From the NCBI GenBank assembly GCA_026992315.1, contig JALXAG010000229.1:1-40121 (forward strand): 40,121 nucleotides of DNA, given 5' to 3'. The notes beneath the pieces are model-generated. The model was not told where the DNA came from. It ran no database searches and saw only the letters and a program-made list of their open reading frames with translations. Below are positions 20,336 to 40,121 of the stretch, piece after piece. The translations under genes and the position numbers were made by a program. Position 1 is the stretch's first letter; the number at the start of each line of letters is the position of its first letter. Source of the stretch: Sneathiellales bacterium (GTDB taxonomy: Bacteria; Pseudomonadota; Alphaproteobacteria; Minwuiales; Minwuiaceae).

Positions 20336-20411
20336 TGGTGGAGCCGAGGGGAATCGAACCCCTGACCTCAGCATTGCGAACGCTGCGCTCTCCCAACTGA
20401 GCTACGGCCCC
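20336..20411 (-). tRNA. tRNA-Ala (anticodon CGC)
   Basis: A 76-nt cloverleaf on the minus strand. The acceptor GGGGCCG pairs with CGGCTCC (one G-U). The anticodon loop TTCGCAA gives CGC, the T-loop GTTCGATTC is present and CCA is encoded. It reads the GCG codon. Confidence 0.95.
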
Positions 20412-30173: not shown

Positions 30174-30308
30174 TCAGGCCGACAGGCGCTTGCGGCCCTT
30201 GCTGCGGCGATTGGCCAGAACCTTGCGGCCGCCGACGGTCTGAAGGCGGGCACGGAAACCGTGCCGGCGCTTGCGGATGAGTTTGCTCGGTTGATAGGTC
30301 CGCTTCAC
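30174..30308 (-). CDS. rpmH: 50S ribosomal protein L34
   Basis: 44 residues, the exact family length: [17 protein letters not shown] at the start and [10 protein letters not shown] at the end. The start codon is GTG with GGAGAAG upstream. A strong promoter is at 30362-30390, and a 6-bp leader hairpin GCCCGC/GCGGGC (30329-30345) lies between promoter and start. It heads the rnpA-yidD-yidC-engB-argB run. Confidence 0.97.
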
Positions 30309-30723
30309 GGATCTTCTCCATAAATTTTGCCCGCAACAAGCGGGCATTAATCAAAGCCCGGTGTATACGGAAACCAAAGACAAGAGTCAATCATCCCCGC
30401 CGCCGGAAAGCACGCCCGCTTCGCCGCATTGGCGGCGGGGGCATGGGGCGTTTGCTCCGGCTGCAGGCCATATGGTGCAATTGCGGCGTTGATACCAGAA
30501 ACAGGCCGCATCCGGCAACAGGGTTGGGCGATTTTCCCTTAAATTGCCGCAATTGCCTGCCGCGACCGGTTGGTTTCATGGTCATGCTCGCTTTTTTGTG
30601 ATGGCTGTTGATTGGGCAAAGCGCGCCGGATCGTTCATCAAGGAAGACGAGGATACCGCCAATGACAAGCATAAGGCCTTCGCCGGCGGTTCCGGCCAAG
30701 GTTCTGATCGAGGAGATGACGAC
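30309..30723. other. Divergent intergenic region, rpmH / Cys-repeat protein
   Basis: No gene is supported. It holds the rpmH promoter and leader hairpin on the minus strand, an 11-bp inverted repeat GCAATTGCGGC/GCCGCAATTGC (30477-30487 with 30546-30556), and a leader of unknown extent for the Cys-repeat gene. The last 180 bases are open in the same frame as that gene, but they do not look like its N-terminus because a clear signal peptide starts at 30724. No sigma70 promoter for that gene is obvious. Confidence 0.5.
30362..30390 (-). promoter_or_regulatory. Promoter of rpmH operon
   Basis: On the minus strand TTGACT (30390-30385), a 17-nt spacer and TATACA (30367-30362): one of the best sigma70-type matches in the window, 54 bp before the rpmH GTG. 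Confidence 0.65.
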
Positions 30724-30999
30724 ATGCTGAAGAAAACCTTTACCGCCGCAGCGATTGCCGCGATGTCCGCCACGGCGCTGACCCCGGCCGTGGTCAATGC
30801 GGCAAGCCATGCCAGCGCCTGCAACCCGTGCAATCCCTGTGCGGCCAAGAAGAAGATGATGAACCCGTGCAATCCCTGCGCGGCCAAGAAGAAGATGATG
30901 AATCCGTGCAACCCGTGCAATCCCTGCGCGGCCAAGAAGAAGATGATGAATCCGTGCAACCCGTGTAATCCCTGCGCGGCCAAGAAGAAGAAAATGTAA
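30724..30999 (+). CDS. Secreted Cys-Asn-Pro repeat protein of unknown function
   Basis: 91 residues. A signal peptide (about 1-26, cleavage after VNA) is followed by a mature part of about 65 residues made of four repeats: two or three N-P-C triplets and then A-A-K-K-K-M-M. Eleven cysteines (33, 36, 39, 49, 52, 62, 65, 68, 78, 81, 84) are all spaced C-x-x-C within clusters, and nine Met sit in or after the Lys runs or in the signal peptide. The repeat units are 39 or 48 bp long. I cannot name a family. Periplasmic soft-metal binding (copper, zinc) or a redox role is a guess from the C-x-x-C/M content. GAGGAG lies upstream of the ATG and a strong terminator follows, so it is a single-gene transcript. 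Confidence 0.75.
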
Positions 31000-31036
31000 G
31001 TTTCCGCGATGTTCCGCCACGGATGGCGGTCAGGAG

Positions 31037-31063
31037 CCGCGCCTTTTAAGGCGCGGTTTTTCT
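31037..31063 (+). terminator. Rho-independent terminator after Cys-repeat gene
   Basis: A 7-bp GC stem CCGCGCC/GGCGCGG (31037-31043 with 31050-31056), loop TTTTAA, followed by TTTTTCTT. Confidence 0.85.
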
Positions 31064-31124: not shown

Positions 31125-32594
31125 ATGCAGGAACGGAAAGACGAGCAGGCGGCACCCGGCGCGCCATCCTCCCGTCCCGATGCGCGCAGGGATGGCGGTG
31201 CGGCCGCATTGCGGCGTTCGGGCAGCTATGTCCTGTCCGGATTATCGGGGCGAATGCTGGTCCTCACCATTATTTTCGTCATGATCGCCGAAGTGCTGAT
31301 CTTCGTTCCCTCCATCGCCCGTTTCCGCCATACCTATCTGCTGCAGCGCCTGTCGGAGGCGCATCTGGCCACCCTGACCCTGCTGGCCATGCCCGATGTC
31401 ACGTTGCCGCGCGAAAAGGAAAGCGAACTTTTGGCGCAGATCGGGGTGCGCGGCATTGTGCTGAACCGGCCGCAGTCGCGGGTACTGATGCTTTCCGAGG
31501 AGATGCCGCCGAGCGTTTCGGCCAGCTACGACCTGCGCCGGGGAACGCCGCTGACCCTGATCCGCGATGCCTTCGTGGCGCTGATGCATGGCGACGGGCG
31601 TATTCTGCGGGTGATCGGTCAGGTTGATGGCGCCGAGGATACGGTTGTCGAGATCATCATGGATGAACAGCCCCTGCGCGAGGCGATGATCGCTTACGCG
31701 GTCAATATTCTCGGCCTGTCGATCGTCATATCGCTGATCACGGCCTTTTTCCTCTACATCGCCATCCGCTGGCTGCTGATCCGCCCGATGCAGCGGCTGA
31801 CTTCGGCGATGATGGTCTTTCGCGACGATCCGCTGAACGCCCGCAATCTGATCGAACCTTCCGCGCGCCGCGACGAACTGGGCATGGCGGAACGCGAACT
31901 GGCGGGGATGCAGCGCCAGATCGTCACTTCCCTGCGCCAGAAATCCCGTCTGGCGGATCTTGGCGCCGCAGTGAGCAAGGTCAATCACGATCTGCGCAAC
32001 ATTCTGGCAACGGCGCATCTGCTTTCCGACCGCCTGACCGAGGCCGAGGATCCGATGGTGCGCCGGGTGGCGCCGGGCCTCATTCAGGCCATCGACCGGG
32101 CCATCGCCCTGTGCCAGCGCACCCTTAAATACGGCAAGGCGGACGAGCCGACGCCGGTGCGCAGCTTTTTCTCGCTGCGCGATCTCGTTGCCGAGGTGGG
32201 CGAAGCCGCCGGGGCCGACGGCCGGAGCGAGCGACAATGGTTCAATCAGGTGCATGAAGGGCTGCTGATCAATGCCGACCGCGATCAGCTTTTCCGGGTG
32301 TTGCTCAATCTCGGGCGCAACGCGCTGGATGCAATCGATGGCGACGGCCGGGTGGTGGTTACCGCCGAACGTCGCGAGGACGGCGTCGCCATTCAGCTTG
32401 CCGATACCGGGCCGGGCCTGCCGGAAGAAGTGCGCGAACACCTGTTCGAACCCTTCGTCGGCTCGTCCCGCCAGGGGGGGACGGGGCTGGGCCTGGCCAT
32501 TGCACATGATCTGGTGCATTCCCATGGCGGCAGCCTGAGCCTGGTTTCCTCCGGCCCGCAGGGCACGGTGTTCCGCATCTGGATTCCGGACTGA
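31125..32594 (+). CDS. Membrane sensor histidine kinase
   Basis: 489 residues. Membrane helices lie at about 43-62 and 192-215, bracketing a periplasmic sensor region of about 130 residues. A HAMP-like segment follows (about 215-265), then a dimerisation helix with H288 in KVNHDLRNILATAH, an H-box in which N-H-D-L-R-N replaces the common S-H-E-L-R-T. The HATPase has LLNLGRNALDAI (N-box), ADTGPGLP and GTGLGLAIAH. The first 40 residues are charged and probably cytosolic. No response regulator is nearby. The signal is unknown. Confidence 0.88.
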   Translation: MQERKDEQAAPGAPSSRPDARRDGGAAALRRSGSYVLSGLSGRMLVLTIIFVMIAEVLIFVPSIARFRHTYLLQRLSEAHLATLTLLAMPDVTLPREKESELLAQIGVRGIVLNRPQSRVLMLSEEMPPSVSASYDLRRGTPLTLIRDAFVALMHGDGRILRVIGQVDGAEDTVVEIIMDEQPLREAMIAYAVNILGLSIVISLITAFFLYIAIRWLLIRPMQRLTSAMMVFRDDPLNARNLIEPSARRDELGMAERELAGMQRQIVTSLRQKSRLADLGAAVSKVNHDLRNILATAHLLSDRLTEAEDPMVRRVAPGLIQAIDRAIALCQRTLKYGKADEPTPVRSFFSLRDLVAEVGEAAGADGRSERQWFNQVHEGLLINADRDQLFRVLLNLGRNALDAIDGDGRVVVTAERREDGVAIQLADTGPGLPEEVREHLFEPFVGSSRQGGTGLGLAIAHDLVHSHGGSLSLVSSGPQGTVFRIWIPD

Positions 32595-39789: not shown

Positions 39790-40121
39790 TCAGCTTCTGC
39801 GCCGCCGCCGCATCAGGGCAAGGGCCAGCATTCCCGCGCCAAGCAGTCCGAGCGTGCCGGGTTCGGGAACCGATTGCGGATTGCCGCCGCCGCCCCCGGA
39901 ACCGCCGGACCCGCCACCGCCGGAGCCTCCACCGGCGCCGCCGGCGCCGCCGGAGCCGCCCCCGGAACCACCACCGGAACCGCCACCGCCAGTGCATCCG
40001 CCGCCACCGCCGCCGGTGCCTCCTCCTCCGCTTCCGCCACCAGAGCCGCCGGACCCACCGGACCCGCCGGACCCACCGGAACCGCCAGATCCGCCGCCGG
40101 ACCCGCCACCGCCGCCATTAT
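39790..40121 (-). CDS. Gly/Ser-rich PEP-CTERM sorting-domain protein (partial, 5' end outside window)
   Basis: The 3' part of a minus-strand gene, about 110 codons, without a start in the window. The C-terminus is a textbook PEP-CTERM signal: VPEPGT, a hydrophobic stretch LGLLGAGMLALALM and a final RRRRRS. Before it, about 73 residues consist almost only of Gly and Ser (GGS and GGGS units, with single Cys, Thr, Ala and Asn). PEP-CTERM proteins are recognised by exosortase (EpsH/XrtA type) and sent to the outer surface or exopolysaccharide. The exosortase gene is not in the window. The trinucleotide-repeat DNA may vary in length. Confidence 0.8.
   Translation of the reverse strand, partial: NGGGGGSGGGSGGSGGSGGSGGSGGSGGGSGGGGTGGGGGGCTGGGGSGGGSGGGSGGAGGAGGGSGGGGSGGSGGGGGNPQSVPEPGTLGLLGAGMLALALMRRRRRS

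Follow-up and report, generated by a model that had tools for sequence, protein, structure and literature searches.

A widespread family of secreted cysteine-repeat (NPC) peptides, also found fused to single-haem cytochromes

Introduction

A small gene within a 40,121-nucleotide contig of a Sneathiellales bacterium (the whole of this stretch being referred to as the window) encodes a peptide that belongs to a widespread family of secreted NPC-repeat proteins, a family without a name in the libraries searched. The 91-residue product is composed nearly wholly of Cys-Asn-Pro-Cys and Ala-Lys repeats, and repeats of the same kind are also found fused to single-haem cytochromes. The peptide is viewed here, tentatively, as a secreted multi-thiol arm that would work alongside periplasmic cytochromes, with sulfur or a soft metal as cargo and with the protein DUF6969 as an accessory where it is present.

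The gene and its sequence features

The gene is an intact open reading frame on the forward strand (30724-30999), preceded by a Shine-Dalgarno-like GAGGAG (30710-30715, forward) that lies 8 nt upstream of the ATG. The protein begins with a Sec-type signal peptide (30724-30801), recognised from an N-terminal motif that is common to homologues and with cleavage placed by eye at about the AVVNA/A junction. The cysteine-repeat region (30820-30999) is built of CNPC(NPC)AAKKK(MM) units, in which the 11 cysteines fall in CNPC(NPC) groups and alternate with four AAKKK blocks, three of them followed by MM, with the translated protein ending in CAAKKKKM. Comparison of the repeats verified the 39- and 48-bp DNA repeats that a preliminary description of the locus had reported. 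The codon differences between units are all synonymous (AAC/AAT, CCG/CCC and TGC/TGT), with the last KKKKM as the exception, and this pattern supports the gene being translated. Downstream, at about 31032-31061 on the forward strand, folding calculations identify an intrinsic-terminator-like hairpin, a 13-bp G+C-rich stem with a T tail (-32 kcal/mol and z -3.4 for a 71-nt stretch), which is absent from the output of a consensus terminator scan. The earlier picture of a complete gene for a secreted cysteine-repeat protein, equipped with a ribosome site and a terminator, is thus upheld.

The same description had proposed that an inverted repeat in the leader, with 11-bp arms GCAATTGCGGC and GCCGCAATTGC (30477-30487 and 30546-30556, spanning 30477-30556 with no strand assigned), might be regulatory. 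The match is exact, yet 11-bp inverted repeats with a gap of up to 100 nt occur five times in the window against one to five times in shuffled sequences, so the proposal is abandoned as not above chance. A long open reading frame opposite the gene was discarded as a shadow of its repeats, and an overlapping 22-residue leader frame left no trace upstream of the orthologues compared.

The divergent neighbour, read from sequence as rpmH (30174-30308, reverse), begins an rpmH-rnpA-yidD-yidC-ysxC-argB block that is conserved in relatives, and a sensor histidine kinase (31125-32594, forward) is the conserved downstream neighbour. Elsewhere in the window, a tmRNA model matches barely above its cut-off over only 76 nt (20336-20411, reverse) and may represent one part of a tmRNA of the two-piece alphaproteobacterial kind, and the right edge (39883-40116) carries dense GCC/CCGCC short tandem repeats.

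Distribution and traits of the family

Pfam and NCBIfam profile searches returned no family covering the 91-residue peptide, in keeping with the preliminary view that it is without a named family. Homologues were nevertheless found widely, and they keep the signal peptide and the regular cysteine spacing, an outcome by which the preliminary reading withstands the test that it had set for itself. A search with a single relative as query matched 42 of 385 alphaproteobacterial genomes (about 11%), which is a minimum, and a scan of named genomes gave 230 places encoding NPC repeats. The window's genome shares its family label with genome G001, for which the named collection gave a Minwuiaceae MAG as a match. 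The best 80 of these 230 are mostly in Alphaproteobacteria and also include Betaproteobacteria, Gammaproteobacteria (Thiotrichaceae, Leucothrix), Rokubacteria and Tectomicrobia.

The 89 standalone peptides gathered for comparison have in common an MLKK-type signal start and a core of NPC/AAK repeats. The thiols are regularly spaced: the distance between consecutive cysteines is divisible by three in 803 of 932 cases (86%), and in 344 of 473 once CxxC is removed. The window peptide has the signal peptide, the NPC/AAK repeats and the cysteine spacing of 3 and 6, together with a spacing of 10 across KKKMM, and its genome also encodes DUF6969, a further trait of the proposed family. An odd number of cysteines in 31 of the 89 peptides speaks against obligatory full disulfide pairing. 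The window copy carries seven methionines in its repeat part and is the only standalone peptide with more than two, the others having none to two and 80 of the 89 having none; histidine is rare throughout. Two further NPC peptides (L109:8390-8758 and L234:2983-3342) carry a lipobox-like LLSACASKG behind a twin-Arg-like start, and are possible lipoprotein/Tat variants of the family.

Fusions and recurrent neighbours

NPC arms flank cytochrome domains on one or both sides, and the cytochromes concerned are of two types, P460 and a SoxA-type cytochrome c. The window's own genome encodes, on another contig (G000:C152), a long NPC-repeat protein with a cytochrome P460 domain (PF16694, 37.2 bits against a cut-off of 27), adjoining genes for FGE-like and DUF6969 proteins. 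In relatives the fused cytochrome c matches PF21342 (SoxA/TsdA-type), and profile comparison places it closest, among solved structures, to SoxA (1h31, E 4.6e-9). An alignment of 15 members shows two invariant features, the CxxCH motif and a second cysteine, which lines up with the 'QMINAC' of SoxA. A third kind of fusion in the same genome (G000:C78) combines NPCAA repeats with a DSP phosphatase domain akin to the TIGR01244 sulfur transferase (51.8 bits, below the cut-off of 85.85), and adjoins a gene whose product matches Sulf_transp/DUF6691, associated with sulfur transport.

The neighbours that recur beside NPC genes, as read from mechanical gene calls, are DUF6969, an FGE-like protein, YedE, a cupredoxin-like protein and a MerA-like reductase with TVP38, and they fall into two cassettes. 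The first runs TVP38 (VTT domain), MerA/dihydrolipoamide-dehydrogenase-like oxidoreductase, NPC peptide and histidine kinase, and adjoins the rpmH-argB block. Orthologues in the window's family occupy the same place upstream of the same kinase; the window locus is without the first two genes, both of which lie on C261 of the same genome behind a cupredoxin-like gene. The second runs YedE, cupredoxin-like, FGE-like (on the opposite strand), NPC-P460 or NPC-SoxA-type cytochrome c, NPC peptide and DUF6969. Because the window's genome has a cupredoxin-like, MerA-like and TVP38 operon, the cupredoxin-like protein is associated with both cassette types, which suggests a single network.

Not every neighbour is informative. 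The histidine kinase is present in 186 of 385 genomes as against 42 of 385 for NPC genes, which argues that the linkage is mostly shared synteny rather than evidence of function and led to its rejection as an NPC-specific sensor, and an ECF sigma factor was likewise set aside when an apparent 40-locus cluster shrank to four loci on direct search. Several phyla (Alphaproteobacteria, Rokubacteria and another family; L065, L091, L094, L104, L211, L216 and L302) have DUF3179 genes close to NPC genes. The exported FGE-like protein (L009:8219-9178, L086:2739-3671) keeps a GGSWDDKGCG[IV]CRPAARH motif in which, by eye, one cysteine seems to correspond to the second FGE cysteine, the first being replaced.

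Proposed function

What might an exported array of evenly spaced thiols do beside a cytochrome? The peptide is proposed to be a small, largely unstructured, multi-thiol protein, the free-standing form of the arm that is elsewhere built onto periplasmic single-haem cytochromes. Its regularly placed cysteines would provide a periplasmic carrier or ligand array, for sulfane sulfur or thiosulfate adducts or for a soft metal, from which cargo or electrons could pass to a partner cytochrome of the SoxA or P460 type. The MerA/Lpd-like disulfide reductase and the YedE-type transporter would lend themselves to thiol chemistry of this sort, and DUF6969, where present, may be a cytoplasmic protein dedicated to maturation or loading. 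We infer the steps from gene linkage to cargo, and the carrier or ligand role is one to which the sulfurtransferase-like fusion, the SoxA-type fusion and the recurrence of YedE, cupredoxin-like, FGE-like and DUF6969 genes all point.

Between the candidate cargoes, thiol-bound sulfur is rated slightly ahead of copper. In the SoxA/TsdA family the haem-ligating cysteine forms an S-thiosulfonate, and SoxA has been proposed to hand the adduct to a carrier cysteine (PMC4423706). The NPC system may work like this pairing of a periplasmic cysteine carrier, SoxY or SoxYZ, with a cysteine-ligated SoxA, given that the cytochrome c fused in relatives is a SoxA-family domain, a likeness of working that is not a claim of membership. 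Unlike SoxY, which has one swinging-arm cysteine, NPC peptides have many, and the window peptide gave no SoxY fold or profile match in Pfam or NCBIfam.

Besides the f188 loci described below, two observations weigh against the proposed carrier arm. The window peptide gene is on a different contig from the DUF6969 gene and the cytochrome fusion of its own genome, and the P460 fusion counts against the sulfur reading in particular, P460 cytochromes being known for hydroxylamine/NO chemistry and not for sulfur. The window protein, unlike its P460-bearing paralogue and the P460 family at large, is itself without a haem domain.

Possible soft-metal binding and family f188

It is possible, if somewhat doubtful, that the peptides are instead soft-metal buffers, in which CxxC arrays, with Met and His added in some lineages, would bind periplasmic Cu(I), Ag(I), Hg(II) or As(III), like metallothioneins or bufferins. 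The cysteine array with its CxxC motifs and the methionines of the window copy are in favour, as is a family designated f188, found in a phylum search, whose CNPCSMKKHM repeats are rich in Met and His. The f188 NPC genes adjoin a multihaem cytochrome and often also arsS (TIGR04167, 465 bits against a cut-off of 300) and arsM (357 bits against 263), and the Met and His between the cysteines, together with arsS and arsM, are more readily explained by the binding of a soft metal or arsenic than by a sulfur carrier. Against this, genes for a copper pump, CopC/CusA or MNIO do not recur in the neighbourhood survey, the MerA-like reductase of the first cassette falls under the MerA cut-off (390 against 454 bits), and ArsS occurs in just two of 162 alphaproteobacterial genomes and is not above cut-off in that of the window; an arsenosugar pathway was rejected as a general explanation, with arsS confined to f188 among the NPC loci examined. 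The preliminary argument from Cys plus Met to Cu(I) is not supported as it was put, since 88 of the 89 standalone peptides have at most two methionines in the repeat part; soft-metal binding as such is possible, given the f188 repeats. The f188 loci L325-L342 (for example L333:9670-10632 and L342:14688-15521), where arsS/arsM stand beside an NPC peptide, an NPC-SoxA-type cytochrome and the multihaem cytochrome, hint at a role in handling arsenic or copper.

Metallothioneins and Csp copper storage proteins resemble the NPC peptides in having cysteine arrays that could bind soft metals. The NPC peptide differs from them in being exported and in its cysteine period of 3 and 6 within NPC/AAK triplets; AlphaFold2 on the monomer was uninformative, with no fold (pLDDT 46.6) and no helical bundle predicted, and there was no metallothionein profile match in Pfam or NCBIfam.

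DUF6969 and peptide modification

An unlikely alternative is a RiPP-like one, in which DUF6969 would be a cytoplasmic metalloenzyme that modifies the cysteine repeats ahead of Sec export, just as bufferins are modified by MNIO enzymes. DUF6969 is present in 40 of 42 NPC-positive alphaproteobacterial genomes against 50 of the 343 others, with a Fisher p of about 1e-26 that is uncorrected for relatedness and inflated by kinship among the genomes; in 11 of those 50, NPC genes were recovered by profile search. It lies within about 3 kb in 32 of the 80 named NPC loci, including those of Beta- and Gammaproteobacteria and Rokubacteria, and in the window's genome (G000:C152:9344-9955) it adjoins the P460 fusion. 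The protein has five invariant histidines (80, 82, 91, 93 and 125) and a confident AlphaFold2 model (pLDDT 94.4) with no fold match in the PDB or among viral models. No open-access paper on DUF6969 or on the repeat strings was found by string search, a weak test.

More diverged cysteine repeats, of GACGAK, CCAAEG and CGGS types, are also read next to DUF6969, which suggests that it serves several types of cysteine repeat. Secreted Cys-rich repeats seen directly beside it include CGGSHAGD, CCAAEGC and CSPCGAGG (L121:7189-7585, L130:7181-7520 and L151:7017-7332, all reverse). Many DUF6969 genes, however, have no cysteine-repeat neighbour, so the protein may have another job. Nor is it obligatory, because all 34 NPC-positive f188 genomes have NPC genes without it; the earlier suggestion of a substrate for peptide modification accordingly gains some support from the association and loses some to f188.

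Bufferins (Buf1/DUF2282 and Buf2) and Buf_EGKCG/oxazolin are short Cys-rich Sec precursors, sometimes with repeats, linked to a dedicated gene (PMC12452194). The window peptide is likewise a cysteine-containing precursor with a Sec signal peptide, with the difference that its repeats are NPC/AAK triplets and not EGKCG and that the linked gene is DUF6969. Identity with the MNIO/bufferin system was rejected, since the window's genome gave no match to MNIO (PF05114) and the Pfam search of the peptide gave none to DUF2282.

Finally, disulfide cross-linking of Lys-rich cysteine repeats into an extracytoplasmic matrix or cytochrome anchor, which the low complexity, regular period, one- or two-sided fusions and lack of a predicted monomer fold would suit, is very improbable in view of the odd cysteine counts and of conserved neighbours that are redox and sulfur genes rather than envelope genes. 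The multi-thiol arm, the metal buffer and the DUF6969-modified peptide are readings that overlap.

Significance

A single cysteine-repeat module, unnamed in the libraries searched, recurs in several phyla, both as free peptides and joined to two unrelated types of cytochrome. A small set of uncharacterised genes accompanies it, and these become candidates for the handling of thiols, sulfur or soft metals in the periplasm. DUF6969 gains its first context through the association. In its boldest and rather improbable form, DUF6969 would be a new His-coordinated metalloenzyme acting on Cys-triplet repeats, both on free peptides and on cytochrome-fused arms, and yielding an undescribed class of modified thiol cofactors that would serve redox chemistry in the periplasm; if DUF6969 does modify the repeats, this would be a new peptide-modification system.
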